A stretch of DNA of 64,000 bases from NCBI GenBank assembly GCA_910574345.1, contig CAJSZV010000010.1:62001-126000 (forward strand), in the 5' to 3' direction. The stretch's first letter is position 1, and each line of letters begins with the position of its first letter. Shown here in pieces: positions 40,838-59,420 of the stretch. Origin of the DNA: Clostridiaceae bacterium (GTDB lineage: Bacteria; Bacillota; Clostridia; Lachnospirales; Lachnospiraceae). The notes beneath the pieces are model-generated. The model made no database searches and was not told the origin of the DNA. It worked only from the letters and a program-made list of their open reading frames with translations. A program made the position numbers and the translations under genes.

Positions 40838-40866
40838 AGCACTGTCACAAATGACGGTGCTTTTTC
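40836..40866 (+). terminator. Terminator after the MuF cassette
   Basis: AAAGCACTGTC (40836-40846) pairs with GACGGTGCTTT (40853-40863), with one G-T pair and a 6-nt loop, ending in five Ts (40861-40865). The stop codon of the small gene lies at its left edge. Confidence 0.8.
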
Positions 40867-40885
40867 TATGAAAGGCGGTGAAGTT

Positions 40886-41170: not shown

Positions 41171-41182
41171 TGAGTGAATGAC

Positions 41183-41206
41183 GCATCCTGAAAAGGGTGC
41201 TTTTTT
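41183..41206 (+). terminator. Terminator between the Prp and scaffold genes
   Basis: GCATCC (41183-41188) pairs with GGGTGC (41195-41200), with one G-T pair and a 6-nt loop, followed by six Ts. As head genes downstream must still be made, read-through or another promoter is needed. Confidence 0.7.
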
Positions 41207-41261
41207 CATGCCTGACGGGGCAATAAATACGGGACTATCACAGGAAAGTGAGGATGAAACC

Positions 41262-41858: not shown

Positions 41859-41876
41859 AGAAGGGAGAACAGGAAC

Positions 41877-43049: not shown

Positions 43050-43061
43050 GGGGGATCGGAA

Positions 43062-43481: not shown

Positions 43482-43896
43482 TGGCAGGACGGATAAAGCG
43501 ACACGAAGAAAAATTTATATCCCCACGGTGATCAGGGGTGTTTCCTATGTCGAAGGGAAAGGATCCAAAGTGGCCGACAATGGGGTGTGGAGTGACGATG
43601 TTCAGTATAAAATCAGGGTTCCCCTGATCGCCGTGGTTCAGGATAACCGGGAATATATGCGGGATCTGAACTATGCAAAGCTGGACAATGAAGAAGCAGC
43701 AAAATACTGGACAATACAGAAGGGGGATCTGGTTGTCCGGGGTGAATATGCCGGTGACAGTCCCCTGCTGGGTGAGGATGAAATATCTGCATACGCAAAG
43801 GAACAGGGGCTTGACCTGATTCACGTCACGGAATACGCCGATGACACGTCAGGGGGGAGCCTGTACACAAGACACTGGCGGATCGGAGGTAAATAA
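43447..43896 (+). CDS. Minor capsid protein 1-type head closure protein
   Basis: The protein (149 residues) has a beta-rich core (TRRKIYIPTVIRGVSYVEGKG) and matches the Minor_capsid_1 family I know from siphophages. It belongs to the connector gene set 43062-44721. It begins within the previous gene and its stop touches the next ATG (TAATG). Confidence 0.75.
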   Translation: MITNVDAVTVFNGRTDKATRRKIYIPTVIRGVSYVEGKGSKVADNGVWSDDVQYKIRVPLIAVVQDNREYMRDLNYAKLDNEEAAKYWTIQKGDLVVRGEYAGDSPLLGEDEISAYAKEQGLDLIHVTEYADDTSGGSLYTRHWRIGGK

Positions 43897-44273
43897 TGGA
43901 TATACACAACATTGTGACACCGGTGAACCGGGTGATCAATTTCGTGGGCGGCAGCGTCAAATTATGCTGGTCAAGTACGTTTGGACGGAACCGCAGCGCC
44001 ATGTTCAGCAGAAAACAGAAAATTGTTGACAGTGAAGTGCTGCGGTACTGTGCGCCGCTGATCCCCTTCCGTACTGGGACACTGACACGTTCCGGGACAA
44101 TCGGAACTGTGATCGGCAGCGGGAATGTTCAGTATGCGACACCATACGCACGTTTTCAGTATTACCAGACGGCACAGTCACGGTCTTATGATTCACGCCG
44201 GGGCGCTAAATGGTTTGAACGCATGAAAACAGCGCACAAAGCAGACATTCAGAGGGCTGCGGAAAGGGGGTAA
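43896..44273 (+). CDS. Minor capsid protein 2-type protein
   Basis: The product has 125 residues and includes IVDSEVLRYCAPLIPFRTGTL, typical of the Minor_capsid_2 family (HK97 gp10-like tail completion). Its order directly after Minor_capsid_1 and before Minor_capsid_3 supports this. It likely joins head connector and tail. Confidence 0.78.
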   Translation: MDIHNIVTPVNRVINFVGGSVKLCWSSTFGRNRSAMFSRKQKIVDSEVLRYCAPLIPFRTGTLTRSGTIGTVIGSGNVQYATPYARFQYYQTAQSRSYDSRRGAKWFERMKTAHKADIQRAAERG

Positions 44274-44277
44274 AAGT

Positions 44278-44721
44278 TTGGTCAACTCAATCATTGAAGG
44301 GCTGACAGATTATTTTTTACAGTGTCCCCTTCTGAAAGACGGAGTTTTCCGGGTGGATGCGCTGGGAAGTGAACCCGTGGAATATGCGCTTGAAACGGGG
44401 ATGACTTCCCCGGTTGTACGAACTTATGTTGATGGTTCCAGTATCAGACAGTATCAGTTCAATTTCAACAGCCGGGAAGCCTATTCAATGGATCGGATTC
44501 TGGCAATACAAAATGAAAGTTTTTATGAAGATTTCTGCAACTGGGTGGAAGAACAAAGCATGATCGGGAACCTTCCTGAAATACCGGAAGGGTGCGAAGC
44601 GCAAGCCCTGACTGTTCTGACACCGGGGTTCATGCTGGACGCAACGATGGAAAATGCTTTCTATCAGGTTCAGCTGCAACTACAATATTTCAAGGAGGCA
44701 CCGAAAAATGAAAAATTTTGA
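44278..44721 (+). CDS. Minor capsid protein 3-type tail terminator
   Basis: The product (147 residues) starts with TTG after GGAAAGGGGG (44261-44270) and resembles the Minor_capsid_3 family, tail terminator proteins capping the tail tube. Features: VNSIIEGLTDYFLQCPLL at the N-terminus and a central beta segment SIRQYQFNFNSREAYS. It overlaps the tail tube gene by 14 nt. Confidence 0.75.
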   Translation: MVNSIIEGLTDYFLQCPLLKDGVFRVDALGSEPVEYALETGMTSPVVRTYVDGSSIRQYQFNFNSREAYSMDRILAIQNESFYEDFCNWVEEQSMIGNLPEIPEGCEAQALTVLTPGFMLDATMENAFYQVQLQLQYFKEAPKNEKF

Positions 44722-45277
44722 TTTACAGCTTTTTACGGGCGGCAGAAGTGCGCTGATCCGTAACATGATCGCCGACTATCTGGAAGTAAACGGAAAGATG
44801 GAACTGTGCGGGATCGGCTTTACAAAGTTAGACGAAAGCCCCGGCGCACAGAGCGACAACACCACCTATATCAATGAAACCACGTCCAGCGCTGACATTA
44901 TAGGGTATGAAACAGAATTTCCCTATGAATTTGACGCTGTTCCCGCACAGAAAGCGCTTTATACTTTGTGGAAGGACGGACGGGATCACCATACCGGGGA
45001 AGCTGCACAGCATACCTATGTACGGGTTGAACTTTTTAACCCCATCGGTACACCATCAAAGACGGCGGCTGAATACACGGCCCGTCAGTTTATCGTGTCA
45101 AATGAAGTCAGCGACTTCACCGGGGACGGGGGACAGAAGATCAACGCTTCCGGTACTCTCCACGCTGTAGGCGATCCGGTTTTCGGCAAGTTTGACACCG
45201 TGAGCATGACTTTCACAGAAGGGGAGTTCAAAGGGAAATTTGACCTTGACGGAGAACCCGCAGTACCTACAGAGTAA
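44708..45277 (+). CDS. Major tail tube protein
   Basis: The protein (189 residues) has a beta-rich body (TKLDESPGAQSDNTTYINET; YETEFPYEFD) as in siphovirus tail tube proteins. The N-terminus MKNFDLQLFTGGRSAL has the same LQLF Prp-like motif as scaffold and capsid, suggesting proteolytic trimming of the tail tube too. I chose ATG 44708, after AAGGAGG at 44692-44698; earlier in-frame starts lie within the preceding gene. Confidence 0.85.
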   Translation: MKNFDLQLFTGGRSALIRNMIADYLEVNGKMELCGIGFTKLDESPGAQSDNTTYINETTSSADIIGYETEFPYEFDAVPAQKALYTLWKDGRDHHTGEAAQHTYVRVELFNPIGTPSKTAAEYTARQFIVSNEVSDFTGDGGQKINASGTLHAVGDPVFGKFDTVSMTFTEGEFKGKFDLDGEPAVPTE

Positions 45278-45341
45278 CACAAAAACCATATAGACAACTA
45301 CTGAAAACGACAACTGATCTATATGACAGTGGACGTTCAGG

Positions 45342-45378
45342 ACAGCGCAGGGTATCACCACGGCCTTGCGCTGTTTTT
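45342..45378 (+). terminator. Terminator after the tail tube gene
   Basis: ACAGCGCAGG (45342-45351) pairs with CCTTGCGCTGT (45364-45374, one bulge), followed by five Ts. A leaky terminator here would give more tail tube than downstream tail proteins. Confidence 0.7.
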
Positions 45379-45409
45379 ATATGCTGTGGTGATTGAAAGG
45401 ATGAAGAAA

Positions 45410-45802
45410 ATGAATATAGAAATCAATGGAGTAACTTTGCAGGCGGATTTCATGGATGCGGATTTCATGGAAGTGTTTGAACCGGCTATTTTTACAATGC
45501 GGGAAGGAATCAATGCAAGTAAGACTATGCAGGGCATGGTTGCGGCAAAGTACAAGGCGATGAACCAGACGATTGAAACATTTTTTGATACAGCGTTCGG
45601 TGAAGGTACTGCTGACAGTATCTTTCAGGGCAGTAAAAATGTTATGGTGCATCTGGAAGCGGTGGCCAAAATTGAGGAAGCGCAGAGGGCTGAAAAGAAA
45701 CAGTTCAACGATTTTTCCAACAAATACACGCAGCGTCAGAACAGTTTCCAGTCTATGCAGGGACACCAGAAGAAACAGAGAAACCAGCCTAACCGCACAT
45801 GA
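45410..45802 (+). CDS. Tail assembly chaperone (gpG-like)
   Basis: The product (130 residues) begins MNIEINGVTLQADFMDADFM and is acidic and helical with a Gln/Asn/Lys-rich end. Position between tail tube and Gp15/tape measure genes fits the first tail assembly chaperone. ATG 45410 is spaced 7 nt from AAAGGA; ATG 45401 lies too close. It overlaps the next gene by 4 nt, and I saw no convincing slippery site for a -1 frameshift fusion. Confidence 0.75.
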   Translation: MNIEINGVTLQADFMDADFMEVFEPAIFTMREGINASKTMQGMVAAKYKAMNQTIETFFDTAFGEGTADSIFQGSKNVMVHLEAVAKIEEAQRAEKKQFNDFSNKYTQRQNSFQSMQGHQKKQRNQPNRT

Positions 45803-46419
45803 ATGTCTTAATGGATGACTTGCCTTGTACCGTCATTGTGGCAGACGTTGAGATCCCCATAGATACAGACTATAGAACGGGTATTCTTTTTGAACAGACT
45901 TTGAGTGATCCGGCCATGCCGGATAATGAAAAGCTGAACACGGTTCTGAAACTGTACTATGGGGATGCTGTTTTTCCGCTGCTGGGCGATATGGACACGG
46001 TACAGGAAGCATTGAACGGGATCATGTGGTTTTACCGCTGCGGTGCTGATGAAACGGCGGGATCTGAAACGGAAGGGGGCGCTTCCGGTAAGGATCCGCC
46101 GTTTTCTTATGAGCATGATGCCGGTTATATTTACGCTGCGTTTGTTGAAGCATATGGAATTGACCTGACAAAGAACAGACTTCATTGGTGGCAATTTCGG
46201 GCCTTATTTTTAGGATTGCCGGAAACGGTTCTTTTCTGCAAGATCATGGCGTACCGCACTATGGAAATACCAGCGAAGATGCCAAAGGAAAAGAAAAGGT
46301 TCTATCAGCGCATGAAACGGATCTACAGGATCCCTGAACCTGCTGAACAAATAAGGCTTGAAAAGGAAATGGAAGCCATCCTTGCGAACGGGGGTGACAT
46401 TTCACAGCTGATCAAGTGA
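45799..46419 (+). CDS. Bacteriophage Gp15 family tail protein
   Basis: The 206-residue protein includes PIDTDYRTGILFEQTLSDP, the acidic loop DETAGSETEGG and LHWWQFRALFLGLPETVLF, the signature of the Gp15 family. It lies between the chaperone and tape measure genes, where the second tail assembly chaperone is normally found. It starts in the ATGA overlap. Confidence 0.85.
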   Translation: MNVLMDDLPCTVIVADVEIPIDTDYRTGILFEQTLSDPAMPDNEKLNTVLKLYYGDAVFPLLGDMDTVQEALNGIMWFYRCGADETAGSETEGGASGKDPPFSYEHDAGYIYAAFVEAYGIDLTKNRLHWWQFRALFLGLPETVLFCKIMAYRTMEIPAKMPKEKKRFYQRMKRIYRIPEPAEQIRLEKEMEAILANGGDISQLIK

Positions 46420-46429
46420 GGTTTTGTAA

Positions 46430-49400
46430 ATGGCAGGTAATGACGGAACATTAAATTTTGATACGAAAATAGACAGTTCAGGCTTTCAAAAAGGTCTTGA
46501 CGGAATAGGGGGCGCTGCACAAAAAGGGTTATCAGTCACCAGTAAAGTGCTAGGCGGGGCCGCTACTGCTGTCACCGCACTGGGCGGGGCTGCGATCAAA
46601 GTAGGTTCAGACTTTGAAGCGGGGATGTCAGAGGTTCAGGCCGTGTCTGGCGCTTCCGGTGAAGCCCTTGAACAATTAAAAGAAAAAGCCAAAGAGATGG
46701 GCGCAAAGACGAAGTTCAGCGCCACGGAATCAGCCGAAGCTATGAACTACATGGCGATGGCCGGCTGGAAAACAGAGGAAATGCTGGGCGGTATTGAAGG
46801 TATTATGAACCTTGCCGCCGCTTCCGGTGAAGATCTTGCCACTACTTCCGACATTGTGACGGATGCCCTGACAGCGTTTGGTATGTCTGCATCCGATTCA
46901 ACACACTTTGCTGATATACTGGCGGCAGCTTCCAGCAACGCAAACACGAATGTGGGCCTTATGGGTGAAACATTCAAATACGTTGCACCGCTGGCCGGTT
47001 CACTGGGCTATTCTGCGGAAGATACGGCCACGGCCATCGGGCTTATGGCAAATGCCGGTATTAAGGGTTCACAGGCCGGTACTGCCCTGCGTTCCATTAT
47101 GACAAGGCTTGCAAAGCCCACAAAGGAGTCACAGGCGGCGATGGATGCGCTGGGCCTGTCCATAACGGACAGTTCCGGGAAAATGAAACCGCTGTCTGAA
47201 ATTGTGGGCGATATGCGGGAAGGCTTTTCTGGTCTTACAGAGGACGAAAAAGCCAGCTATGCCGCTATGCTGGGCGGTCAGGAAGCCATGTCTGGATTGC
47301 TGGCAATCGTTAATGCGTCAGATAAAGATTTTGAAAAGCTGTCCGGCGCAATCAATGACTGCAACGGATCCGCCGCTGAAATGGCTGAAATCATGCAGGA
47401 CAATTTACAGGGGCAGATCACTATTCTGCAATCCGGCCTTGAAGGTTTAGGCGTTTCCCTGTATGAAACCATGCAGGACACGGCAAAGGACGTTGTAAAA
47501 GAAGCACAGGGGATGGTTCAGCAGTTACAGGATGCGTTCAATGAGGGCGGCTTTCAGGGCCTTGTGGGTGCGTTCGGTAACGTTCTGGCGCAGATAGTCC
47601 AGCGGATAGCGGAAGCGGCCCCAACGGTCATTGAAGCCGCCGTCAGTCTGGTCATGTCCTTTTGTGACGGCCTGAAAAGTGCGCCGGGGATCGGGGAATC
47701 GGGCGCAAGCCTGATCACGTCACTTGTCACTGGCCTGATGTCCTGTGTCGGTGAGATATGGACAACGGCCATAGTCCTGATCGGCAAGCTGGCAGAAGGG
47801 ATTGCTGCGGGTGCGCCGCAGATGGTTCAGGCAGCTTCCACGGCGATCACTGACATTGTGGAATGTATTGTTGACTGGATGCCGGATATTCTACAGGCCG
47901 GTGCTGATATTATTGTAGCACTGGCAGAAGGGATTGCTGGCGCACTTCCCACACTGATATATCAGGCGGCGGTCATTGTGTCAGACATAGCGCTGGCGCT
48001 GGTTGAAAATCTTCCGGCACTGGTGGATGCTGCCTTGCAGCTGGTCATGGGACTGGTGCAAGGTCTGGTTGACGGGATCCCCGTTCTGCTGGAAGGTGCT
48101 ATTCAGTTATTCATGGCAATACTGGATGCGCTGCCCGTTATCATAGAAAAATTACTGCAAGCGCTGCCTGACCTGATAACCACAATCATTGACTTTTTCA
48201 CGCAGAACATACCGCTGATCGTTGACGGAGCAATTCAGCTGTTAATGGGTATCATTGACGCTATTCCCACGATCATTCAGGCAATCGTGAATAATTTGCC
48301 GCAGATCATAACGGCGCTTGTCAATGGGCTTGTGGGTGCGCTTCCGCAGCTGTTAGAAGCAGCCATCACGCTGCTGATGGCAATTATTGAAGCAATCCCT
48401 GATATTGTGGTGGCGATTGCTGAAAACCTTCCGCAGATCATAACGGCGATTGCTACAGGTTTAGCACAGGCCATCCCGCAGATATTCACGGCAGCAAAGG
48501 ATCTGTTGTGGCAGATTATTGAAGCGGTTCCTGAAATTGTGGTAGGTATCGCCGGGGCTGTACCGGATATTATAGCCGGAATTGTGAACGGCCTGATCGG
48601 TGGAATCAGCGCAGTATGGGATGCGGCTTGTGAACTGGGTTCCGGTATACTGGACGGGATCAAGTCATTTTTCGGTATTAACAGCCCTTCAACCGTAATG
48701 GCTGAACAGGGTGATTATTTGGTACAGGGGCTAGTCAATGGCATCGCAAGTATGCCCGCAGAACTGGCCGCATATCTGGATCAGACAGTCCAGAAGATCA
48801 TAGCATGGGGACAGCAAATGTTCAGCAACGTTCAGAACATAATTCAGAACGTGGTGAACACAGCTGTAAACCTGATCGCACAGCTGCCCGGTAAAATCTG
48901 GACATGGCTTGTTAATGTGGTGACAAAAACTGTTCAATGGGGACAGCAGATGTTGACCACGGCCACAAATGCGATTCAAAACATGATTTCCAGCATTATT
49001 TCCCTGCTGTCTGAACTTCCGGGGAAGGTCTGGACATGGCTTGTCAATGTAGTTACGAAAGTAACTGCATGGGGCCAACAAATGCTGAATACCGCAAAAA
49101 GCGCAATCAGCAGTATGATTTCAGCCATCGTCAGCTTGATTTCTGAATTACCGGGAAAAGTCTGGACGTGGTTAGTCAACACAGTAACAAAGGTGACAGC
49201 ATGGGGACAGCAAATGTTGAGCGCTGCGAAAACAGCGATCAGCAATATGATTTCTTCCGTTGTTTCCCTTATGTCAGAACTACCGGGAAAAGTTGCAACG
49301 CACTTGTCAAATGTCGTTTCAAAGGTTGTCGCATGGGGCAGCGAACTGGCATCCAAAGGGGCTGCTGCTGCTAAAGGGCTGTTTGATGCCGTGGTCAACG

Positions 49401-49900
49401 GTGTCAGCGGTTTACCTTCCAAAATGGCAGAGGTAGGAAGTAATATAGTCAGCGGTATTTGGAACGGTATTAGTTCAGGCTGGAACTGGCTGAAAGATAA
49501 AGTTTCAAGCCTTGCAAATAGTCTGCTGGATGCCGCAAAGGACGCACTGGGTATAAATTCCCCTTCAAAGGCGTTCCGTGATGAATTTGGACGCTGGCTA
49601 ATGCCCGGAACTGTAGAGGGCGTGAAACAGTCAATGCCTAAAGCGTTGCGGGAAATGGAAGCACAGGCCGGGGAACTTCTGGCAGCTATGCAGGGAACCG
49701 TGGACGCTTCCATGAATGAAGTTTCTTTGAACGCTTCAAGTTTTGGGGATGCAAAGGCCCTGAACAATGGGGGAACCACTGTCTATAATGACAATCATCA
49801 GGAACAGGAAAACAACTACCATGTACCTGTAGCAACACCAGCAGAAACAGCAAAGTCACAGCGGGAAGCGTTCAGGAAGATGGCCGGGGGTGTGAAGTAA
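46430..49900 (+). CDS. Tail tape measure protein
   Basis: The protein has 1156 residues. N-terminal TP901-type tape measure core (about 60-330: GAKTKFSATESAEAMNYMA, LGGQEAMSGLL). Long hydrophobic region (about 390-760) of repeated membrane-like helices (AIPDIVVAIAENLPQIITAI). Then five 44-residue repeats around AWGQQM (about 790-985) and a C-terminal part with two INSPS motifs (SFFGINSPSTVM; ALGINSPSKAF). It sets tail length, roughly 170 nm if 0.15 nm per residue, and may form a channel at DNA entry. Confidence 0.93.
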   Translation: MAGNDGTLNFDTKIDSSGFQKGLDGIGGAAQKGLSVTSKVLGGAATAVTALGGAAIKVGSDFEAGMSEVQAVSGASGEALEQLKEKAKEMGAKTKFSATESAEAMNYMAMAGWKTEEMLGGIEGIMNLAAASGEDLATTSDIVTDALTAFGMSASDSTHFADILAAASSNANTNVGLMGETFKYVAPLAGSLGYSAEDTATAIGLMANAGIKGSQAGTALRSIMTRLAKPTKESQAAMDALGLSITDSSGKMKPLSEIVGDMREGFSGLTEDEKASYAAMLGGQEAMSGLLAIVNASDKDFEKLSGAINDCNGSAAEMAEIMQDNLQGQITILQSGLEGLGVSLYETMQDTAKDVVKEAQGMVQQLQDAFNEGGFQGLVGAFGNVLAQIVQRIAEAAPTVIEAAVSLVMSFCDGLKSAPGIGESGASLITSLVTGLMSCVGEIWTTAIVLIGKLAEGIAAGAPQMVQAASTAITDIVECIVDWMPDILQAGADIIVALAEGIAGALPTLIYQAAVIVSDIALALVENLPALVDAALQLVMGLVQGLVDGIPVLLEGAIQLFMAILDALPVIIEKLLQALPDLITTIIDFFTQNIPLIVDGAIQLLMGIIDAIPTIIQAIVNNLPQIITALVNGLVGALPQLLEAAITLLMAIIEAIPDIVVAIAENLPQIITAIATGLAQAIPQIFTAAKDLLWQIIEAVPEIVVGIAGAVPDIIAGIVNGLIGGISAVWDAACELGSGILDGIKSFFGINSPSTVMAEQGDYLVQGLVNGIASMPAELAAYLDQTVQKIIAWGQQMFSNVQNIIQNVVNTAVNLIAQLPGKIWTWLVNVVTKTVQWGQQMLTTATNAIQNMISSIISLLSELPGKVWTWLVNVVTKVTAWGQQMLNTAKSAISSMISAIVSLISELPGKVWTWLVNTVTKVTAWGQQMLSAAKTAISNMISSVVSLMSELPGKVATHLSNVVSKVVAWGSELASKGAAAAKGLFDAVVNGVSGLPSKMAEVGSNIVSGIWNGISSGWNWLKDKVSSLANSLLDAAKDALGINSPSKAFRDEFGRWLMPGTVEGVKQSMPKALREMEAQAGELLAAMQGTVDASMNEVSLNASSFGDAKALNNGGTTVYNDNHQEQENNYHVPVATPAETAKSQREAFRKMAGGVK
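48803..49376 (+). repeat. Five 132-bp repeats in the tape measure gene
   Basis: The codons for (A/Q)WG recur at 48803, 48935, 49067, 49199 and 49331, exactly 132 nt (44 codons) apart. Each unit reads AWGQQM, an amphipathic helix, then ELPGKVWTWLVN. The fifth copy is diverged. Confidence 0.9.
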
Positions 49901-50817
49901 TGACAATTAACACATTAAAAATTGAATTGACGTGCAACGGCAGAACGCTGGCGATGGGGCCGGGACTTGATATTGACATAACCAAAGTTTCCGGCCTTGA
50001 ATCTTCCGAACTGGAAATAAGCACGTCAGACAATGCACTGGTGGATGGGGTGTCTGTAGACGGTAAGAAAATAGGCAAGCGCCCCATCCACATTGAAGCG
50101 AAGTTCAAAAGTGGCCGCAATAACCCGGAAAACCGGGCTGCGGTCATTAAATTTTTTAACCCTAAGTATACCGGGAAAGCCCTGATCACAAATATGGGGA
50201 TTTCCCGGAATATTGAATATGAACTGGAAGGATGGACGTTTGCGGAGCAGCGGAACCTTGACACAAGGCTGGGGATCATTGTGGATCTGATATGTCCGGA
50301 TCCTTATATGCTGAATGTTGATAATTTTGGTAAGAACATGGCCCACTATACAAAGCAGTTTCATTTTCCGTGGCACTCTTTAGCAAAACGGGCCACAAAT
50401 AAAAACCAGTACCCGGAGAAAGCAAGGGGGCTGATGCTGGGCGGCATGATTATGGGCTACAGGACGCTGCACAAGGAAGTTGTGCTTGCCAACGATGGGG
50501 ACGTTTCAACGGGCGTTCAGATTCAGTTTGTAGCGAAACGGGGAACTGTAAAGAATCCGAAAATCACCAGCGTAAAGACTGGTCAATTCATGCGGGTTGT
50601 GTGTGATATGGTGGCCGGTGATGTTCTGCTGATAGATACGAACCCACGCCATCAGGTCATTGAACTGAACGGGGTGAACTTCTACCACCACATTGACCGG
50701 CGATCAGAACCTTTTGAACTGGAAGTTGGGGACAATTACCTTGAATATGACGCTGATGAAAATTACACAAATTTGGACGTGAATCTATATTACCGGCCTA
50801 AATATTTGGGGGTGTGA
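49900..50817 (+). CDS. Distal tail protein (Dit, SPP1 gp19.1-like)
   Basis: The product (305 residues) begins MTINTLKIELTCNGRTLAMG and contains KFFNPKYTGKALITNMGISR and LDTRLGIIVDLICPDPYM, typical of siphovirus Dit proteins. It forms the hub at the end of the tail tube to which baseplate proteins attach. It overlaps the tape measure stop by 1 nt (TAATG). Confidence 0.85.
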   Translation: MTINTLKIELTCNGRTLAMGPGLDIDITKVSGLESSELEISTSDNALVDGVSVDGKKIGKRPIHIEAKFKSGRNNPENRAAVIKFFNPKYTGKALITNMGISRNIEYELEGWTFAEQRNLDTRLGIIVDLICPDPYMLNVDNFGKNMAHYTKQFHFPWHSLAKRATNKNQYPEKARGLMLGGMIMGYRTLHKEVVLANDGDVSTGVQIQFVAKRGTVKNPKITSVKTGQFMRVVCDMVAGDVLLIDTNPRHQVIELNGVNFYHHIDRRSEPFELEVGDNYLEYDADENYTNLDVNLYYRPKYLGV

Positions 50818-50819
50818 TT

Positions 50820-51914
50820 ATGCAGTTTATTATATTTGACAGCAGCTTCCAGACAACGGGATCCATCCGGGTATTCAATACGCTTTTATGGTATCGCAGG
50901 TATTACAGCCCCGGTATATTTGAACTTCATGTACCGGCTGAATATTTTGACCTGATCAACAGCGGCAGGTATCTGTACAGGAATGACCGCACGGAACTGG
51001 GGGTGATCCGGGAAGTCAATTTCATGCGTGGGGATAAAAGCCAGAAAACGGCATACTGTAAAGGCTTTTTTGCTGAACACCTGCTGAACAATAACGTGAT
51101 CTACCCCACTTTTAACCGGACAGGGACACCGGAAGCGCTGGCCCGTGGGGTAATTGATCAGTATATTATCAATCCGGCCAACGCAGGCAGGAAGATCAAA
51201 CACATTCAGCTGGGACAGCTGCAAGGCGGCGGCACTTCCATCGCCTTGCAGAATACCGGGGACAATGTAGGGGATCGGTTATATGACACGCTGAAAACAC
51301 AGGAAATGTCACAGCGCCTTGTTTTTGATTATCTGGAAAATACGCTGACATATGAGGTCTGGAAGGGCCTTGATCGCACGGACACACAGACAGAAAACAG
51401 CTGGGCGATTTTTTCAGACAGCTTCAGGAACATAAAAAATGCACAGTATGACCGGGATGAATCGGATTGCAAAAATGTGGCATATGTGGCCGGAGAAGGT
51501 GAAGGATCCGCCCGGAAGGTGGTTGAAGTGGACATCCGGCAAAGTCCTGACGAAGAACGCCGGGAACTGTGGGTTGATGCTAGGGACTTGCAGCAACATT
51601 CTGACAATGTAAACTATACGGATGCACAGTACAGGGATCTGCTGTTTCAGCGTGGTCTTGAAAAACTGGCTGACTATGCGGGCATTGAAAAGGTTGATAG
51701 TGATGTAGATCCTGCTGCTAATCTCATTTACGGAACTGACTATGATTTAGGGGATCTGTGTACTTACAGGTACAGCGATGTGAATATAGAATGTTCAAAA
51801 CGGATCACTGAAATTCAGGAAGTGTTGGAAGGTTCCAAAAGAACGTTGAGTGTTATTTTTGGGAATGACAGCGCAACGGATTTTAAAAAGATTATCAGAA
51901 AGGAGACAACATAA
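50820..51914 (+). CDS. Tail protein of the ReqiPepy6 Gp37-like family
   Basis: The protein (364 residues) has MQFIIFDSSFQTTGSIRVFN at its start and a mid region with DNVGDRLYDTLKTQEMSQRL and FDYLENTLTYEVWKG, which I recognise from the Gp37-like tail family (Tal/baseplate hub position). It follows Dit as expected. ATG 50820 is preferred; GTG 50814 overlaps GGGGGTG, the likely ribosome site. Confidence 0.82.
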   Translation: MQFIIFDSSFQTTGSIRVFNTLLWYRRYYSPGIFELHVPAEYFDLINSGRYLYRNDRTELGVIREVNFMRGDKSQKTAYCKGFFAEHLLNNNVIYPTFNRTGTPEALARGVIDQYIINPANAGRKIKHIQLGQLQGGGTSIALQNTGDNVGDRLYDTLKTQEMSQRLVFDYLENTLTYEVWKGLDRTDTQTENSWAIFSDSFRNIKNAQYDRDESDCKNVAYVAGEGEGSARKVVEVDIRQSPDEERRELWVDARDLQQHSDNVNYTDAQYRDLLFQRGLEKLADYAGIEKVDSDVDPAANLIYGTDYDLGDLCTYRYSDVNIECSKRITEIQEVLEGSKRTLSVIFGNDSATDFKKIIRKETT

Positions 51915-51916
51915 AA

Positions 51917-53032
51917 ATGGCTTTTAGATTTGGATATTTCGATTCAGAAATTACAGGGATAGACGATGAGGGGATGCCGATTTTTGATCGGGCTGAAACG
52001 TCTGACCTGTTCGCCCTTCTCTTTGCTAATTTAGTCAGTGACGGGGTTCTTGCCCTTCCTTCAAACTGTTTCCGGGTACGGGCTGCGGGGAATGGCCTGA
52101 ACCTTGAACTGGATCCGGGTTTTGGTATGGTGAAGGGACACTTCTGTTACAATGACGAAGTTGACCATTTAACCATAGAATCAGCGCCGCAGCAGTATAA
52201 CAGAATTGACCGGGTTGTTATGCGGTGCAACTATCTGGAAAGAATGGTTGAAATTTTAATAAAAACCGGTATAGAAGCGGCTAACCCTGTACCGCCTGAA
52301 CTGATCCGGCCAGCAGCCGGTGACTATTTTGAATTATGCCTTGCAAATATCCGGTTGACCGCAGGGCAGAAAGTGATCACACAAAGCAGTATCACAGACA
52401 CACGGCCAGACAGCGCCGTTTGTGGCTACATTACGCAGCTGATTGACCATCTTGACACAGCTGTTTTCTTTGAACAGCTGAATAAATTCTATGAAGAATT
52501 TGTTGACAAGTCCAACACCAGCTATAAAGAGTTCACACAGATGGCGGCTGACGCTTTCAAAGCGTTCACGGATGACATATCACAGTATATTGCCACGCTG
52601 AAACAGGACAGCACAGACGCATATAACAATTTGCTGAATACTATGAACAGCTTTTACACCACGCTTTCACAGCAAGGAAAAGACCTTCATGATCAGTATT
52701 CCGCTGAACTGTCTGAATATCTGACTGAACTTGAAACGAAAGGAAACAATGACCTGTTAGCAATCACACAGCAGTTGATTCTTTTCAAGTCTACAAATGA
52801 AGCGGCTTTCCTTGAGTGGTTTGAACATATCAAGGGGATGCTGGGCGAAGATCCAGCCGGAAAGCTACAGATTCAGGTTGACGCACTGACCGCACAGTTG
52901 GAAGATACACAAAGTATGTTGATCAGTGGTATGGTGCGGGCGAAGCTGAAAACGGATCAGAATGATTTCATAACAGACAGTACGGGAAAACCGCTGCTGA
53001 TCGGCTGGCCGATCTGCGGTTGTAATAAATGA
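51917..53032 (+). CDS. Baseplate upper protein / helical tail fibre adaptor
   Basis: The 371-residue protein has a beta-rich N-terminal third (about 1-165: MAFRFGYFDSEITGIDDEGM; AGNGLNLELDPGFGMVKGH) resembling baseplate attachment domains, then a long helical rod (about 170-330) and a short C-terminal cap with two Cys (GWPICGCNK). It probably links the tail tip with the diversified protein encoded next. The gene pair is contiguous, 19 nt apart. Confidence 0.75.
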   Translation: MAFRFGYFDSEITGIDDEGMPIFDRAETSDLFALLFANLVSDGVLALPSNCFRVRAAGNGLNLELDPGFGMVKGHFCYNDEVDHLTIESAPQQYNRIDRVVMRCNYLERMVEILIKTGIEAANPVPPELIRPAAGDYFELCLANIRLTAGQKVITQSSITDTRPDSAVCGYITQLIDHLDTAVFFEQLNKFYEEFVDKSNTSYKEFTQMAADAFKAFTDDISQYIATLKQDSTDAYNNLLNTMNSFYTTLSQQGKDLHDQYSAELSEYLTELETKGNNDLLAITQQLILFKSTNEAAFLEWFEHIKGMLGEDPAGKLQIQVDALTAQLEDTQSMLISGMVRAKLKTDQNDFITDSTGKPLLIGWPICGCNK

Positions 53033-53051
53033 AACAGGAGGTAATACGACA

Positions 53052-55172
53052 ATGAATGAAGGAAAAACTTTTTTTGATTTACCACAGGCGCAGACCGTAC
53101 CGGCTGGTAGCCGGTACGCCGTGGAAATGGGGGACGGTTCCGGGACTAAAAGCGTGACACATGAAGATGTGGTCAAGGCCGTGGGCGGGGATCTTCCGCT
53201 GGGCGATACAAAAGACCTTGAAACCATAGCAAAAGACAATTTTGTTAATGCAATCAATGAGATCAAGCGCCGGACAGATTCAGCGTCAGGCGGTGCGGCC
53301 ATCAGGGTGCTGACCACAGATCCGGCCCTGTATGGGCGTGTTGTATCAGTGACGGATGGCAAAACCACGCTGACCGGTTCCATGTCTTACACTGGTGAAT
53401 GTATGATAACCGGCATACTGATCAATGGTAATCTGACGGTATCTGCATCCACGGAAGAAGGGGCCACAGCTGAAACCACTGTCACGGTCACGAATTACGC
53501 CACATATAGCGCAGAACTGGACACAAGGGGAGAATATAACCGTATAGACGTGAAAACGGCTGAAACGGGCTTATATGGACGTACAGTGACCGTTTCCAAC
53601 GGTACAGACAGCGCAACGGGGACAATCGGAAATGACGGTACAGCAAAGATCCGCTTTTCCTTTTCCGGGGCGGTTACAGTGACCGCTTCCGATGGTACGA
53701 ACACGGCCAGCGCTTCCCTGAATGTGTCAGGGGAAAGCGTGGGTGTCTACAGTGTGGATCTGCAACTGTATCACTTGACCGTGACCACGGCTGACAAAAA
53801 GCTGAACGGGAAGATGGTCACGCTGGTATGTGGAAGCTACAGCAGGACGGGAACTTTTGCGGGCGGTGTCGCTGCTATCACCTTTGACAGTAATTTCAGG
53901 GGTGAGTGTTTGATCGGTGCGTCAGACGGTTCCAGAACTGGCACGGTCAAGATCCATCCGGTTCCTTCCATGTATGCCTACAGTGTCACAATGACGCTTG
54001 CGGTTGTGTATTCTGCCCTGATTGATTTTTCAAAGTCTGCACCGGATAAAATGATCACTTATGCGGACGATGCGGAAGGTATGGAACACAGTTTTGCGTC
54101 ATGGCGTGATATGCCGATTTTTAAGGATATGCGGCCCTGTGTCCTGAAAAATGGGGAAGTGCTGTACTACCTGAATCCTGATAATTACACACAGAAAGCA
54201 GACAGGACAGCCGCAGACATTACCACACTGGGAAATGATGTCATGCTGGAAATTCCCTACAGGGTGGGCTACAGTATTGAATGGGTGAACACTGGAAAAA
54301 ATCTGCTGAAAGTGTCCGTGACCAACGAACCGGACAACGCAGCGTTCAAATATGACGCTTTCAGCCTTGACAGCTATAACGATTGTGACCGGATCTATAT
54401 TGGTGTTTATAAAGGCCACTGTTCCGGGAATAGAGCATATTCCAGTTCAGGAAAAGCCGTCACCGTATCACAAACCATTGACACGTTCAGAACATGGTGC
54501 AGGGCAAGGGGCGCAGGCTATCAGCAGCGCACATATGGCAGCTTGAAACTGATGCAGTGCCTTTTCATTATCAGTCATGGCACATTAAACAGTCAGGCGG
54601 CTGTGGGAACCGGATATGTGAAAAGCAGTCACAGCGCTGGCGTTAATACTGGCGGTACAAATGCGTATGGTTTTGACAGTGAAGTGATCCGCACTTCTGC
54701 CCCGGCCTATATGACCGATCAGGAACATCAGGTGAAATGTTTGGGCCTTGAAGATTTTTGGGGGAATTATTGGGAATTTATTGACGGCCTGACTTCTGAC
54801 GCAAACAGAAACGTGATGACCTGCGATATTGCAAAGAACTTTGTCACCAACGGAACCGGCTATAAAAATAACGGAAACGGCGGTGTGACAGCGAATATTG
54901 CGAACTATATGAAGTTACCGCAGGGCGGCAGCGATGCAGGTTTTACAGCCCGTGACGTATCAGGATCAGACAGCACCTATTTTACCGATTCTGCTTATTT
55001 GTATGCGTCCTGTCTTGCTGTTTTCGGTGGTGGTTGGGCTGATGCTCTTGGTGCGGGCGCTTTTCGGCTGGCTGTGAGTACTGCTTTTTCGTTATCGAGT
55101 GTGGGTGTCGGGTGTCGCCTGATGTTTATGCACAAAGAGGAACCGAAGGAAACAGAGGAAGAAGCCGCCTAA
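53052..55172 (+). CDS. DGR-diversified tail protein (receptor-binding candidate)
   Basis: The protein has 706 residues. N-terminal attachment part (about 1-80), three tandem beta-sandwich repeats (about 83-155, 163-240, 241-315; each with LYGRxV/LNGKMV and a T-V-S-A core), and a large C-terminal domain (about 335-706) of the FGE-sulfatase/C-type-lectin type with LGLEDFWGNYWEF at 564-576. The last 60 residues contain the variable repeat (645-692). DGR targets of this fold display variable residues on a ligand-binding face, so this is probably the receptor-binding protein. RT and template lie directly downstream. Confidence 0.9.
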   Translation: MNEGKTFFDLPQAQTVPAGSRYAVEMGDGSGTKSVTHEDVVKAVGGDLPLGDTKDLETIAKDNFVNAINEIKRRTDSASGGAAIRVLTTDPALYGRVVSVTDGKTTLTGSMSYTGECMITGILINGNLTVSASTEEGATAETTVTVTNYATYSAELDTRGEYNRIDVKTAETGLYGRTVTVSNGTDSATGTIGNDGTAKIRFSFSGAVTVTASDGTNTASASLNVSGESVGVYSVDLQLYHLTVTTADKKLNGKMVTLVCGSYSRTGTFAGGVAAITFDSNFRGECLIGASDGSRTGTVKIHPVPSMYAYSVTMTLAVVYSALIDFSKSAPDKMITYADDAEGMEHSFASWRDMPIFKDMRPCVLKNGEVLYYLNPDNYTQKADRTAADITTLGNDVMLEIPYRVGYSIEWVNTGKNLLKVSVTNEPDNAAFKYDAFSLDSYNDCDRIYIGVYKGHCSGNRAYSSSGKAVTVSQTIDTFRTWCRARGAGYQQRTYGSLKLMQCLFIISHGTLNSQAAVGTGYVKSSHSAGVNTGGTNAYGFDSEVIRTSAPAYMTDQEHQVKCLGLEDFWGNYWEFIDGLTSDANRNVMTCDIAKNFVTNGTGYKNNGNGGVTANIANYMKLPQGGSDAGFTARDVSGSDSTYFTDSAYLYASCLAVFGGGWADALGAGAFRLAVSTAFSLSSVGVGCRLMFMHKEEPKETEEEAA
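54984..55127 (+). other. DGR variable repeat (VR)
   Basis: This 144-bp segment aligns without gaps with 55271-55414. The 30 mismatches comprise 29 at positions where the template has A (23 A to G, five A to C, one A to T) and one T to A at the far 3' edge. In protein terms 21 residues differ through adenine changes, mostly AAT or ACT template codons. Adenine-only mismatches may extend the match upstream to 54976. The C/G-richer, almost unchanged 3' end (55110-55120) is the likely initiation-of-mutagenic-homing site. Confidence 0.95.
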
Positions 55173-55185
55173 AAAGCGGCTTTTT
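55162..55185 (+). terminator. Hairpin downstream of the VR
   Basis: AAGCCGC (55162-55168) and GCGGCTT (55176-55182) form a perfect 7-bp stem with a 7-nt loop containing the stop codon, followed by Ts to 55185. It can serve as a terminator. It also matches the position of the DNA hairpin needed for efficient DGR homing in phage BPP-1, about 35 bp after the VR. Confidence 0.75.
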
Positions 55186-55270
55186 AATATAACTAAAAAC
55201 CGGGTAGTGAAAGCATGACATAAAGTTGATTTTTACATTCACTTATTGCCATTAAAGAACAGACAAAAAA

Positions 55271-55414
55271 AACGATTATACTAATTTGTATACGTCCTGT
55301 CTTACTATTTTCAGTGGTAATTGGAATAATGCTCTTAATGCAGGCACTTTTCAACTGAATGTGAATAATACTTTTTCGTTATCGAATGTGAATGTCGGGT
55401 GTCACCTATTGTTT
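55271..55414 (+). other. DGR template repeat (TR) within a non-coding RNA region
   Basis: This is the adenine-rich template of the VR at 54984-55127. In the VR frame it reads as a plausible lectin tail with many Asn (AAT) codons, the usual DGR design giving the widest amino acid range. It lies in the 373-nt gap between the target gene and the RT gene. The template RNA probably spans about 55190-55545. The rest of this gap (55186-55262 and 55415-55545) shows no gene. Confidence 0.93.
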
Positions 55415-55545
55415 TCCACAATAGATATTTTTTAAACACGGTGAACTTCCACTACCCTGCCACTAGGCAAAACACAAAGAATCCCGTTATCTGTATTAGT
55501 AGCAGAAGCGAACGTTCAGGGGACGGAAAACATCAGGGGTGTTGC

Positions 55546-56664
55546 ATGAAAAGACATGGTGATATTTTTTATAAAATTTGCGCCATGGAAAACCTACGGG
55601 AAGCACACCGAAATGCCAGAAAAGATAAATTGTTTTATAAAGAAGTCAAGATGGTTGATCAGGATCCTGACAAGTACCTGAAAGAAATTCAGGAAATGTT
55701 GCTGAATGATACTTACGAAGTGTCAGAATACACGGTGTCGATCATCAATGACAAAGGCAAGGAACGAGAACTTGAAAAACTTCCATACTTTCCAGACAGG
55801 ATCATTCAATGGGCGATCATGCTACAGATTGAACCGATCTTCATGGAAACGTTTTGCACTCATACCTGTGCATCCATAAAGGACAGAGGGATCAGCAAGG
55901 CCCTTGATCTTCTTCATGGGTATCTGGAAGATGTACCCGGTACACAATACTGTCTGAAAATTGATGTCAGAAAATTCTATCCTAGTATAGATCACGATAT
56001 TTTGAAGCAACTGCTGGCCCGCAAGATTAAAGACCAGCGGCTGCTTTCACTATTGTATAAAATTGTTGACAGTGTTCCCGGTACTGGTGTACCGATTGGA
56101 TCCTATCTTTCACAATACCTTGCGAATTTTTATCTGGCATATTTTGACCACTATTTGAAGGAAGAACTGCATCAAAGGTATGTGGTGCGGTATATGGATG
56201 ACATTATCATATTATCGGACAGCAAGGAACAGCTGCATGAGGTCAGAAGAAAGATGGGTGAATATCTGGAAACACGTCTGAACCTTGTTTTGAAAGACAA
56301 CTGGCAAGTCTTTCCTGTAGATGTCCGTGGTATTGATTTTATAGGGTTCCGCTGCTTCCACGGCTACACGCTGTTACGGAAACGAACCTGTATAAAGTTT
56401 AAAAATATAATGCGCCGGATTCAGAAAAAGCAGGAAGCCGGACTTCTGATCAGTTATTCAGAATTTTGTTCAGCTAATTCATATTGTGGATGGCTGGATA
56501 TGTGCAACGGCTACAGGCTGAAAGAAAAATATATTGTACCGGTTGCGCCGTCCCTGATGCGGTACTATGAAGAAGTTATTGCTGACGGGAAAAAGAATAA
56601 GGTTGTGAAAATCAACAAATATAGAAAGAAGCTAGAAAAGAAAGGATTGGTGAAAGCTGCATGA
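55546..56664 (+). CDS. Diversity-generating retroelement reverse transcriptase
   Basis: The RT has 372 residues with finger-palm motifs in order: FPDRIIQWAIMLQIEPIF, CLKIDVRKFYPSIDHDIL (first catalytic Asp), IGSYLSQYLANFYL with the DGR-typical IGxxxSQ at 184-190, YMDD at 216-219, and GIDFIGFRCFHGYTLLRK. IGxxxSQ instead of the QG of retroviral or group II enzymes marks the DGR clade. It copies TR RNA with adenine-specific errors into VR cDNA. I chose ATG 55546, preceded by AGGGGTG; the frame extends upstream to 55399 but there covers the TR end. It ends in an ATGA overlap. Confidence 0.95.
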   Translation: MKRHGDIFYKICAMENLREAHRNARKDKLFYKEVKMVDQDPDKYLKEIQEMLLNDTYEVSEYTVSIINDKGKERELEKLPYFPDRIIQWAIMLQIEPIFMETFCTHTCASIKDRGISKALDLLHGYLEDVPGTQYCLKIDVRKFYPSIDHDILKQLLARKIKDQRLLSLLYKIVDSVPGTGVPIGSYLSQYLANFYLAYFDHYLKEELHQRYVVRYMDDIIILSDSKEQLHEVRRKMGEYLETRLNLVLKDNWQVFPVDVRGIDFIGFRCFHGYTLLRKRTCIKFKNIMRRIQKKQEAGLLISYSEFCSANSYCGWLDMCNGYRLKEKYIVPVAPSLMRYYEEVIADGKKNKVVKINKYRKKLEKKGLVKAA

Positions 56665-56957
56665 AAGATTTAGGAATCAGACAGGGAAGTGCCGCCTTTG
56701 CCGTTCCGGTGGTTGTTATGCCGGATGCGGTGTATGTCCACAAGGATATACAGAAGGTGGAGCCGCAGGAGGGAATGGAGAACGCCGGGGACGTGTACCA
56801 GTATCACGAATTTGTATATGAACCTGACGAATACATTCAGCTGATCGGAAGTGAAAACGACACACTGAAAAAGAATCTGTCCAGTATGTCGGAAGAACTG
56901 ACCAGCACACAGATGGCATTGACAGAAGTTTTTGAAATGATAGGGGGTGCAGAATAA
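56661..56957 (+). CDS. Small phage protein after the RT gene
   Basis: The 98-residue protein has a beta-prone N-terminal half (GSAAFAVPVVVMPDAVYVHK) and a C-terminal coiled coil (ENDTLKKNLSSMSEELTSTQ). It does not look like the DGR accessory protein Avd, a basic four-helix bundle, because it is acidic and mixed. Such proteins are common between tail fibre and holin genes of clostridial phages. It overlaps both neighbours (ATGA; TAATG). Confidence 0.7.
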   Translation: MKDLGIRQGSAAFAVPVVVMPDAVYVHKDIQKVEPQEGMENAGDVYQYHEFVYEPDEYIQLIGSENDTLKKNLSSMSEELTSTQMALTEVFEMIGGAE

Positions 56958-57076
56958 TGAGCATGATGGCAAAGGTTTATGCTGACCTGATCCGCAAGGG
57001 TAAAAAGACGGTCAAGGACGTTCCCAAAAGTTTGCAGAAGGAAGTCAAGGCGCTGCTGGCGGGTGACACAAAATGA
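56957..57076 (+). CDS. CD1375-like small phage protein, copy 1
   Basis: The product (39 residues, MSMMAKVYADLIRKGKKTVK...) ends shortly after VKDVPKSLQKEVKALL. I recognise this as the short XkdX/CD1375-like type found before holins. It overlaps the previous stop by 1 nt, and a paralog follows at 57127. Confidence 0.65.
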   Translation: MSMMAKVYADLIRKGKKTVKDVPKSLQKEVKALLAGDTK

Positions 57077-57126
57077 TCCTGCTGGAAGTCCTGCTTTATT
57101 TCATACTGGGAAAGGGGGTGGATAAT

Positions 57127-57255
57127 ATGGCAATCGTTTATGCGCTGCTGATCATCAAAGGCAAGAAAACCTATGGTGATGTTCCGGCAAAGCTGAAAGA
57201 ACAGGTCAAGGAAGTTCTGATTGACATGGAAGTGCCTGAACTGGCCGCAGATTGA
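57127..57255 (+). CDS. CD1375-like small phage protein, copy 2
   Basis: The 42-residue product (MAIVYALLIIKGKKTYGDVP...) is clearly related to the preceding copy: A-x-VYAxLIxKGKKT, DVPxxL and EVKxxL align. ATG 57127 follows AAAGGGGGTGGA. A longer in-frame start at 57073 would add an 18-residue hydrophobic N-terminus and overlap the previous stop; I consider it less likely. Confidence 0.65.
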   Translation: MAIVYALLIIKGKKTYGDVPAKLKEQVKEVLIDMEVPELAAD

Positions 57256-57296
57256 TTTTTTCAGCTACATGGACAAATTATCAAAGACACACGTTA

Positions 57297-57341
57297 AAGC
57301 ACCTATATGACGTTATATGAGCGTCAGACGGGTGCCTTTTT
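57297..57341 (+). terminator. Terminator before the holin gene
   Basis: GCACC (57299-57303) pairs with GGTGC (57331-57335), around an inner GACG/CGTC pair (57309-57312 with 57322-57325), followed by a T5 run. It separates the tail/DGR transcript from the lysis cassette. Confidence 0.65.
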
Positions 57342-57365
57342 CGTGTGCAGAAAGGATGGAAAGAC

Positions 57366-57794
57366 ATGAAAATGAAACTTTTAACTTTTATCGGTGTAGT
57401 TGGAAGCTGGATCGCTTCCCTGTTCGGGGGCTGGGATGCCGCACTGGTGACGCTGCTGATCTTCATGGGAATTGATTATGTGACAGGTCTGATCGTTGCC
57501 GGGGTATTTAAGGCCAGTGAAAAGACAGAGAACGGCGCACTGGAAAGCACAGCAGGATGGAAAGGTCTTTGCAGAAAAGGCGTGACCTTGCTTGTGGTTT
57601 TGGTGGCGTGTCGGCTGGATCTGGTCATGGGTTCCAACTTTATCAGGGATGCCGTGGTGATCGCATTTATCGCAAATGAAACTATTTCAATTATCGAAAA
57701 TGCCGGTCTTATGGGGATCCCCATTCCCGCAGTTATCACAAAGGCCATCGAAGTGCTGAAAAGCAAAGCAGAAAGTGAAGGTGATCACCAGTGA
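57366..57794 (+). CDS. Phage holin (TcdE/phi-LC3-like, holin_4 family)
   Basis: The 142-residue protein has three membrane helices (about 5-25, 28-48 and 70-110), with LIFMGIDYVTGLIVAGVFK and IRDAVVIAFIANETISIIEN, typical of the toxin-secretion/phage-lysis holin family. It permeabilises the membrane so that the endolysin encoded next reaches the wall. The next gene starts in its stop codon (GTGA). Confidence 0.9.
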   Translation: MKMKLLTFIGVVGSWIASLFGGWDAALVTLLIFMGIDYVTGLIVAGVFKASEKTENGALESTAGWKGLCRKGVTLLVVLVACRLDLVMGSNFIRDAVVIAFIANETISIIENAGLMGIPIPAVITKAIEVLKSKAESEGDHQ

Positions 57795-59131
57795 AGATCG
57801 TTGAACATTTCCTGACAAGGAACCGCTGCTATCAGGCAGCAAAGCAGAATACAAAGGGCGGCTTAATGCTTCATAGCGTAGGCTGCCCGCAGCCTTCCGC
57901 ACAGGTATTTGTGAACAGCTGGAACAGTGCTGACAAGTCTGTGTGTGTTCATGCGTTCATTGACGCAAATACCGGGGACGTGTACCAAACTTTGCCGTGG
58001 GAATACCGGGGATGGCATTGTGGATCCGGGCCAAACGGATCCGGCAATAATACGCATATCGGTGTTGAAATGTGTGAACCGGCCTGTATCAGATACACGG
58101 GCGGCGCACGTTTTACCTGTTCCAATGTAGAGGAAGCACGGGCCGCAGTCAGGCGCACATATGAAAGCGCTGTTCAGTTGTTTGCTGAACTGTGTGAACG
58201 GTTCAGGCTTGATCCGCTGGCCGATGGGGTTATTCTCTCCCACGAAGAAGGACACAAACGGGGGATTGCCAACAATCACGGCGATCCGGTTCATTTATGG
58301 AATCAGCTGAACATGGGGTATACTATGGACGGATTCAGAAAAGCGGTCAAGGCTGCTATGGGTTCCGCAGCTGTACCAGCAGAACCGGCAGCTGTAGACA
58401 ATGCCGCTGTGATCTGGAACTTCCTGAAAAGTAAAGGGCTGAATGATTACGCCGTGGCCGGTATCATGGGGAATCTGGAAAAGGAAAGCGGGCTGGATCC
58501 CTGCAATCTGCAAAACAGCTATAACAAAAAGCTGAATATTTCGGATGCCGATTATACCGCCGTTGTGGATGCTGGGGCTTACCCTGATTTTGTTACAGAC
58601 AAGGCCGGTTATGGTTTGGTACAGTGGACGTATTGGAGCCGGAAAAAGGCCCTGCTGGACTATGCAAAGGCGGCTGGTACTTCCATCGGTGATCTGAATA
58701 TGCAGCTGGCTTTCATGTGGCAGGAGTTACAGGGGTACAAAACTGTTATGACTGTACTGAATAGCGCCGCATCCGTCAGGGAAGCGTCAGACATTGTTCT
58801 GCATAAGTATGAACAGCCGGGGGATCAGAGTGTAGCTGTAGAGGAAAAGCGGGCTGCATCCGGTCAGACATTTTTTGACCGGTTCACTGGTTCCGGCGCT
58901 TCCCCCTTCCCCGTTGTTCCTTTTCTGGTCAGAGTTGTCATCCCGGATCTGAATATCAGAACAAGCCCCGGTTCCGCAGATAACAGCAATTTGTCAGGCA
59001 AGTACACGGACATCGGAACCTTCACTATTGTGGAGACTTCCGGCAGTTGGGGCCTGCTGAAATCATACCGGGAAAAGCGCAACGGATGGATCTATTTGGG
59101 GAACCCTGACTACTGTGAAATCTGTTCCTAA
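57791..59131 (+). CDS. Three-domain endolysin: amidase, tail-lysozyme-like, SH3
   Basis: The protein has 446 residues. N-terminal Amidase_2/PGRP domain (about 20-175) with zinc ligand His in LMLHSVGCPQ and IGVEMCEP. Central phage tail lysozyme-like domain (about 205-365: VAGIMGNLEKESGLDP with the catalytic Glu, GLVQWTYWSRKKAL). C-terminal SH3b cell wall binding domain (about 380-446: LNIRTSPG, GWIYLG). Two different cleavage activities are predicted, an amide and a glycosidic bond. It starts with GTG overlapping the holin stop. Confidence 0.92.
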   Translation: MKIVEHFLTRNRCYQAAKQNTKGGLMLHSVGCPQPSAQVFVNSWNSADKSVCVHAFIDANTGDVYQTLPWEYRGWHCGSGPNGSGNNTHIGVEMCEPACIRYTGGARFTCSNVEEARAAVRRTYESAVQLFAELCERFRLDPLADGVILSHEEGHKRGIANNHGDPVHLWNQLNMGYTMDGFRKAVKAAMGSAAVPAEPAAVDNAAVIWNFLKSKGLNDYAVAGIMGNLEKESGLDPCNLQNSYNKKLNISDADYTAVVDAGAYPDFVTDKAGYGLVQWTYWSRKKALLDYAKAAGTSIGDLNMQLAFMWQELQGYKTVMTVLNSAASVREASDIVLHKYEQPGDQSVAVEEKRAASGQTFFDRFTGSGASPFPVVPFLVRVVIPDLNIRTSPGSADNSNLSGKYTDIGTFTIVETSGSWGLLKSYREKRNGWIYLGNPDYCEICS

Positions 59132-59162
59132 TTTGTTACTAATTGAGGGGATTTTGACAGAT

Positions 59163-59420
59163 TTAGTTAGCGTGTAAAGACTGAACTTTTCCCATAAATA
59201 CAGTATTTGCGCTATGTTGTACTGAACCCTTTTTTGTGATGCCATGATTTCGGGCGTAGTCGAGAAAGGCGGATACGTCTGCAGGATTTATGGCCTTTGC
59301 TTTGGCCCCTCTGGGATTGCGGGTGAAGAACTGGAATGTGTTGGCATTAATTGTTGACGCGTCCTTTCCCATGGCAAGGTAGCCTTTGGATGAGGACAGA
59401 TGACAGCCGATGGTTAACAT
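59163..59420 (-). pseudogene. nfo: Endonuclease IV, 5' part (split by the prophage)
   Basis: This is the N-terminal 61 residues of endonuclease IV ([20 protein letters not shown] ... YARNHGI), with the conserved His-x-Ser DNA-binding loop, followed by about 24 residues of prophage-encoded tail to a stop at 59163. The native start at 59420 follows AGGAGGT. It keeps the nfo promoter side, while the metal-binding remainder is at 15789-16481. Precise excision would restore ARNHGI(T/V)KILAHAPY in frame. Confidence 0.9.
59231..59246. other. attR, right prophage-chromosome junction
   Basis: TTTTTGTGATGCCATG aligns with attL at 16430-16445 (TTTTT, GAT and ATG shared). The stretch 59180-59215 inside it contains GAACTTTT, the complement of AAAAGTTC near attL (16523-16530), possibly integrase arm sites. 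Confidence 0.65.

Follow-up and report, generated by a model that had tools for sequence, protein, structure and literature searches.

The question raised by this locus is whether a prophage tail gene, a pair of related repeats and a neighbouring reverse transcriptase (RT) gene constitute a working diversity-generating retroelement (DGR), and, if so, how and to what end the tail gene is changed. The locus lies in a stretch of 64,000 nucleotides, here called the window, from a genome assigned to the Lachnospiraceae. The best explanation overall, with a probability of about 0.93, is a recently active phage DGR, apparently independent of Avd, that rewrites a lectin-fold tail protein. As an element it is typical of phage DGRs, and its type of spacer RNA is already known; new are the proposed error code and the setting, which is Avd-less and associated with an RT-17 RNA.

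Anatomy of the cassette

The repeats and the target gene are arranged as follows.

53052..55172, + strand, DGR target gene, 706 aa
54984-55127, + strand, variable repeat (VR), 144 bp
55162..55182, + strand, 7-bp hairpin with a T-run, 34 nt past the VR, stop codon inside the loop
55271-55414, + strand, template repeat (TR), 144 bp

The VR and TR align without gaps at an offset of 287 and differ at 30 of 144 bp. TR adenines, of which there are 38, hold 29 of the 30 mismatches (hypergeometric p 2e-21); these are 23 A>G, five A>C and one A>T changes, plus a single T>A close to the 3' end, and the VR side carries A in just one mismatch. The repeat positions and the 29/30 count had been given in an earlier note on this DNA, and a recount returns the same values. 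A repeat finder recovers the identical pair (80% identity). Used as a DNA query against the host genome, the TR matches only itself and the VR, with no third repeat copy or second target. Adenine changes can alter 24 codons of the TR and convert none of them to a stop. The identification of the locus as a DGR stands on this adenine signature, on an RT of the DGR group, on a target with a predicted C-type-lectin fold, and on a VR that has been rewritten with the TR unchanged, as described below.

The N-terminus of the target protein consists of repeats of Ig-like appearance, as judged by eye. The C-terminus is a variable domain with a predicted C-type-lectin/FGE fold (CLec/FGE; VIA-align), which agrees with the lectin-like domain proposed earlier. 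The product is probably a tail-tip receptor-binding protein, and as such would bind a receptor. A relative of the target (L076:2328-5546) shares the variable domain but has a different and longer N-terminus (open frame 1073 aa), from which the receptor domain appears to be modular. With respect to the hairpin downstream of the VR, the DNA fold of 55120-55195 has a z of -2.0, and 8 of 200 shuffles are equally stable; the hairpin may act as a terminator and/or as an analogue of the post-IMH stem-loop.

The cassette resembles the DGR of the Bordetella phage BPP-1 (mtd-avd-TR-brt) in that the TR is upstream of the RT, the element is in the phage tail region, and the VR is at the C-terminus of a tail receptor protein of the same fold class. 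It differs in that BPP-1 has avd between mtd and the TR, whereas the window cassette has no bAvd.

The reverse transcriptase and its placement

55546..56664, + strand, DGR reverse transcriptase, 372 aa from ATG; reading frame open from GTG 55399; phrog_1423, E 1.8e-119
56661..56957, + strand, 98-aa open reading frame with a 4-nt overlap at the RT stop; match to phrog_18126, function not known

The RT reading frame as listed, 55399-56664, opens at a GTG within the TR. The ATG at 55546 is the more likely start, since M, K and R at positions 1-3 are invariant among eight aligned RTs. The motifs IGxxxSQ and YMDD noted earlier are both present, as IGSYLSQ and YMDD, and [I/L]GxxxSQ is found in all ten other RTs aligned with the window RT. 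The best solved chain is 8ub7 (E 1.5e-36), listed as 'Reverse transcriptase', which we take to be BPP-1 bRT. In a phylogenetic tree, 64 of 66 rows, BPP-1 Brt included, separate from two other RTs of the host with support of 100/99; these two serve as an outgroup without a classification of their own, and there are long-branch warnings, Brt being among the branches concerned. The window RT thus groups with DGR RTs, and a position outside the DGR clade, which the earlier note had named as grounds for refutation, is not what the tree gives. Matches to PADLOC and NCBIfam RT models look like generic RT similarity, with none of eight NCBIfam matches at the cut-off. The 98-aa reading frame was considered as an Avd replacement or DGR member and set aside, its phrog_18126 match being all that could be cited for it.

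Four related DGR RTs (L019:5001-6080, L020, L021 and L024) have seven in-frame TGA codons apiece and no TAA or TAG. Several TGA codons of the L019 RT coincide with glycine positions of the window RT, e.g. in IGSYLSQ, and this coincidence suggests that the phages carrying these RTs may live in hosts where UGA is translated as glycine.

A DGR without a recognizable avd gene

The earlier note described the DGR as complete. This holds for the cassette parts but not for an avd gene: neither the prophage nor any related record that was searched has a recognizable one. A search for bAvd (Pfam PF22296) gives no match in the prophage and two genes elsewhere in the host genome, each ~0.5 kb from the RT of one of two other DGRs. 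In the host genome (G000), four RT loci are accompanied by a TR/VR pair: C10 (the window), C6:230915 (L002), C6:172418 (L004) and C27:50121 (L006); bAvd is close to two of the three loci outside the window. Among other carriers of the phage, described below, bAvd is found 0 times in G062 and G064, where the phage is integrated, 0 times in the G063 bin, whose host is unproven, and once in G061. Records related to the window RT group gave 0 matches in 47, many of these records being fragments and the bins possibly incomplete; as controls in this 50-record search, BPP-1 matched and one of two outside records matched below the cut-off. A further 20 relatives also gave no match, versus 29 of 30 records of an Avd-type control clade.

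Some DGRs have no Avd, and the window DGR apparently works without an Avd protein. A diverged Avd may lie beneath the reach of the HMM, and a supply of Avd in trans is possible in the window host, with two bAvd genes beside other DGRs, and in G061, with one. In an E. coli reconstitution, BPP-1 needs avd (PMC12875486). An RT lineage that may mutagenize without Avd would simplify study of the mechanism.

The spacer RNA

55453..55533, + strand, RT-17-type RNA in the TR-RT spacer; RF03020, 34 bits, E 7e-4, gathering score 40.4; stem 55458-55469

The 131-nt spacer between TR and RT contains an RNA that resembles a known Rfam type, RT-17 (RF03020), and the idea of a new structured RNA was dropped on this account. 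The window copy scores below the gathering threshold, but 13 of 17 sources reach it, i.e. 13 of 15 related sources and neither of two Avd-type sources; the misses are L168, L022, L241 and L246. For comparisons between loci, 'AB' denotes those whose RT resembles that of the window (about 45-100% similarity), which are not a strict tree clade, and 'Avd-type' those for which the RT of host locus L006 served as query. A spacer hairpin motif, first spotted by eye in some loci and then counted, occurs in 71 of 85 AB loci, in 22 of 42 loci of a second related group (C) and in none of 80 Avd-type loci, some loci being on the same contig; a shuffled AB locus would yield ~0.001. Three of the four stem pairs show two-sided changes across 33 aligned rows, and the covariation score is 0.261 versus 0.073 in shuffled alignments, while further pair types show no excess (3 observed, 3.0 in shuffles); the rows were chosen by a pattern demanding the pairs, so that 100% pairing is by construction. 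The Rfam match is independent support for this conserved, putative spacer RNA, which is probably what the RT grips.

Copies of the prophage and rewriting of the VR

16430..59240, prophage, ends to ~10 nt, deduced from two circular (excised) copies joining 59240 to ~16430
16516-17532, integrase (phrog_1 match)

The same phage is found as an IMG/VR sequence (L016) and in four other genomes (L088-L091, here G061-G064). The alignment of L016 runs through 50550-59240 and then 16430-17939 without a break, and the G063 contig has the same junction; both are therefore excised or circular copies, which sets the prophage at ~16430-59240. G063 as an Oscillospiraceae host is accordingly ruled out, the contig being circular phage. 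Past 59240, the window, G061, G062 and G064 enter other DNA, and the four flanks have no mutual blastn similarity (E 1e-3). RpoB identity to the window host is 83% for G064, 81% for G062 and 78% for G061, and the four hosts would therefore represent different genera by this marker. Aligned parts of the prophage are 97-99% identical between copies; out of 42.8 kb, the aligned lengths are 40.6 kb for G063, 39.1 kb for G064, 18.4 kb for G061 and 10.3 kb for G062, only parts of the last two having been fetched. A sample of 397 family genomes has no further copy of the region, with short weak matches in eight. Integration sites differ between hosts (window ~16437 and 59240; L016, L088, L089, L091, L148, L150), and few bases (GAT) are common to the two window ends and the circular copies.

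In five copies, variable columns number 0 of 144 in the TR, 0 of 131 in the spacer, 10 of 1119 in the RT, 18 of 941 in the upstream target gene and 24 of 144 in the VR. Variable VR columns comprise 23 of the 38 at template adenines and one of the other 106 (p 1e-15), so that the confinement of VR differences to template adenines, suggested earlier as a check, is seen in 23 of 24 columns. The window and G062 differ at 13 VR positions, all on TR adenines, and at 0 of 5,053 compared positions outside the VR (54043 to 59239). Since the VR varies and the TR is unchanged among copies 97-99% identical, some retrohoming has taken place after their divergence, and the DGR has been recently active.

G061 was left out of this strict count because its TR 5' end, at a contig end, has VR letters. 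With G061 added, 26 of 144 VR columns vary (24 on template adenines), as do 8 of 143 TR columns, and one A-before-C site becomes variable. The G061 assembly (L088, L121) breaks between VR and TR, and its TR end is a probable assembly chimera; repeat-driven misassembly of this kind is a pitfall for DGR surveys.

Two proposed classes of template adenine

The template adenines do not behave alike. The ten columns with a template A before C or G are constant across the five clean copies (nine are G and one is C in all), whereas 23 of 28 vary where the A precedes A or T. The pattern was followed in the 188 loci with a repeat-finder pair, 172 of which have a reading frame. Removal of identical TR plus VR pairs left 50 AB, 31 C, 64 Avd-type and 13 other loci; from these, 39 AB, 25 C and 46 Avd-type representatives were taken and trimmed by 10 positions at the start and 30 at the end. 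In the 39 trimmed representatives of the RT group, 242 cells have a template A before C or G, and of these 209 are G, 30 are A and 3 are T; of 722 cells with A before A or T, 198 are G, 336 A, 80 C and 108 T. Not one of the 39 loci departs from this direction (Wilcoxon p 5e-8); all A-before-C/G sites are G in 19 of the 39, and the weakest locus has 2 of 5. Group C shares the AG part (CAG 34/34) and is weaker in the AC part, with G in 71 of 137 before C or G overall; in 19 of 25 loci the G share is higher before C/G than before A/T (p 7.5e-4). The Avd-type group has no clear split (98/355 versus 92/421; 28 of 45 loci; p 0.056). Third positions in the second group seemed to follow an A>T rule, but this disappeared on trimming of the repeat ends.

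The pattern suggests a context code, a property of the RT lineage of Avd-less, RT-17-associated phage DGRs, whereby A before C or G would almost always become G, a fixed recoding, and A before A or T would be randomized. Variable codons (AAT) would thus be separated from silent adenines by one neighbouring base. This code, which is unseen in Avd-bearing DGRs even of the same cell and differs from that of BPP-1 bRT, is regarded as fairly likely; it is deduced from evolved alleles, as distinct from measured error rates. Its simplest account is that the RT may insert C opposite a template A after copying C or G, the readout of an adenine seemingly being set by the next template base.

Could purifying selection on the protein fix A>G before C or G, with nothing except Ala, Gly or Arg tolerated at these codons? 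Several such codons do encode strongly conserved fold residues, among them the glycine of FGG and the invariant arginine of RL. However, synonymous third positions are biased as well, with G in 49 of 53 before C/G versus 4 of 19 before A/T in trimmed representatives (97/101 versus 39/74 untrimmed), which argues against protein selection. Selection should also lead the TR to shed these adenines, yet related TRs retain many; this explanation is distinctly unlikely. Under the context code, G>A changes in the TR before C or G would be nearly silent, which would explain why these TR adenines persist.

That the G positions are common to all five clean copies might also mean that they are ancestral VR letters never overwritten by retrohoming. 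Yet rewritten sites are interspersed among them at distances of a few bases. Moreover, 86 aligned sites have T or C in place of A in the TR of a relative; there, the relative's VR carries the letter of its own TR in every pair (353 of 353), and G stands in the A-bearing locus at 77 of these sites. The positions are therefore overwritten, and the G is likelier to have been made anew than inherited, which makes persistence of ancestral letters quite improbable.

A third explanation is A-to-I editing of the TR RNA before copying. Inosine would be copied as G, and an editing enzyme would bring a strong neighbour preference. But three other DGRs in the same host, two with bAvd adjacent, lack the pattern, with G at 7 of 29 A-before-C/G sites versus 9 of 10 in the window DGR (untrimmed, p 4e-4). 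A cause specific to the RT is therefore simpler, and editing is very improbable.

Errors of BPP-1 bRT also depend most on the 3' neighbour, but in the NAC context BPP-1 cDNA has more G misincorporation, equivalent to C in the VR (PMC12875486), whereas the window DGR mostly has G in the VR. Substitutions were judged essentially random in a 2012 survey (PMC3521204), and about half of changed adenines became G according to a 2019 survey (PMC6642488). No report of the context pattern was found in the literature searched, most subscription papers lying outside its coverage. A naturally occurring RT whose error code differs from that of BPP-1 bRT and is sharper would offer a way to ask how DGR enzymes choose errors.

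Proposed mechanism and possible host tropism

A sequence of events can be proposed. The TR would be transcribed together with the RT-17-type spacer RNA, and the phage RT, probably holding the spacer RNA and needing no Avd protein, would make a cDNA of the TR with errors opposite adenines. Rewriting would in this way pass through an RNA intermediate. The cDNA would then replace the VR and re-randomize chiefly ten AAT codons of the lectin-fold tail protein.

Host-range retargeting, proposed earlier for this prophage, would be the likely use of the DGR. The presence of the same phage, with different VRs, in genera that differ by RpoB fits tropism switching. The VR differences among hosts could also be neutral turnover, as a VR can diversify with or without a change of tropism, and L016 and G063 are excised copies that are not tied to a host. 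Set against this are the lectin fold and tail-protein match of the target, and the fact that the remaining 5 kb compared can be identical across genera; neutral turnover is a possibility, though an unlikely one. The near-isogenic natural pair, with 13 VR changes between what are two genera by RpoB, allows one to ask whether the VR alone determines tropism.

Precedents for host retargeting are provided by the Hankyphage and the Bacuni phages. The Hankyphage is likewise one temperate phage with an unchanged TR and VRs differing at adenines, in 13 Bacteroides species (PMC6199706). It is Mu-like and stays within one genus, whereas the hosts of the window phage are further apart (RpoB 78-83%) and one pair of its copies is identical outside the VR over the positions compared. 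Bacuni phages F1 and F4 are also near-identical, differ mainly in the VR and infect different hosts (PMC8143477). Their hosts are strains of one species, and their DGR has Avd and two targets.

The early region beside the integrase (window ~17940-22160 versus L155, L157 and L161) is mosaic, in copies otherwise 97-99% identical; as a guess, this mosaicism might reflect immunity switching.
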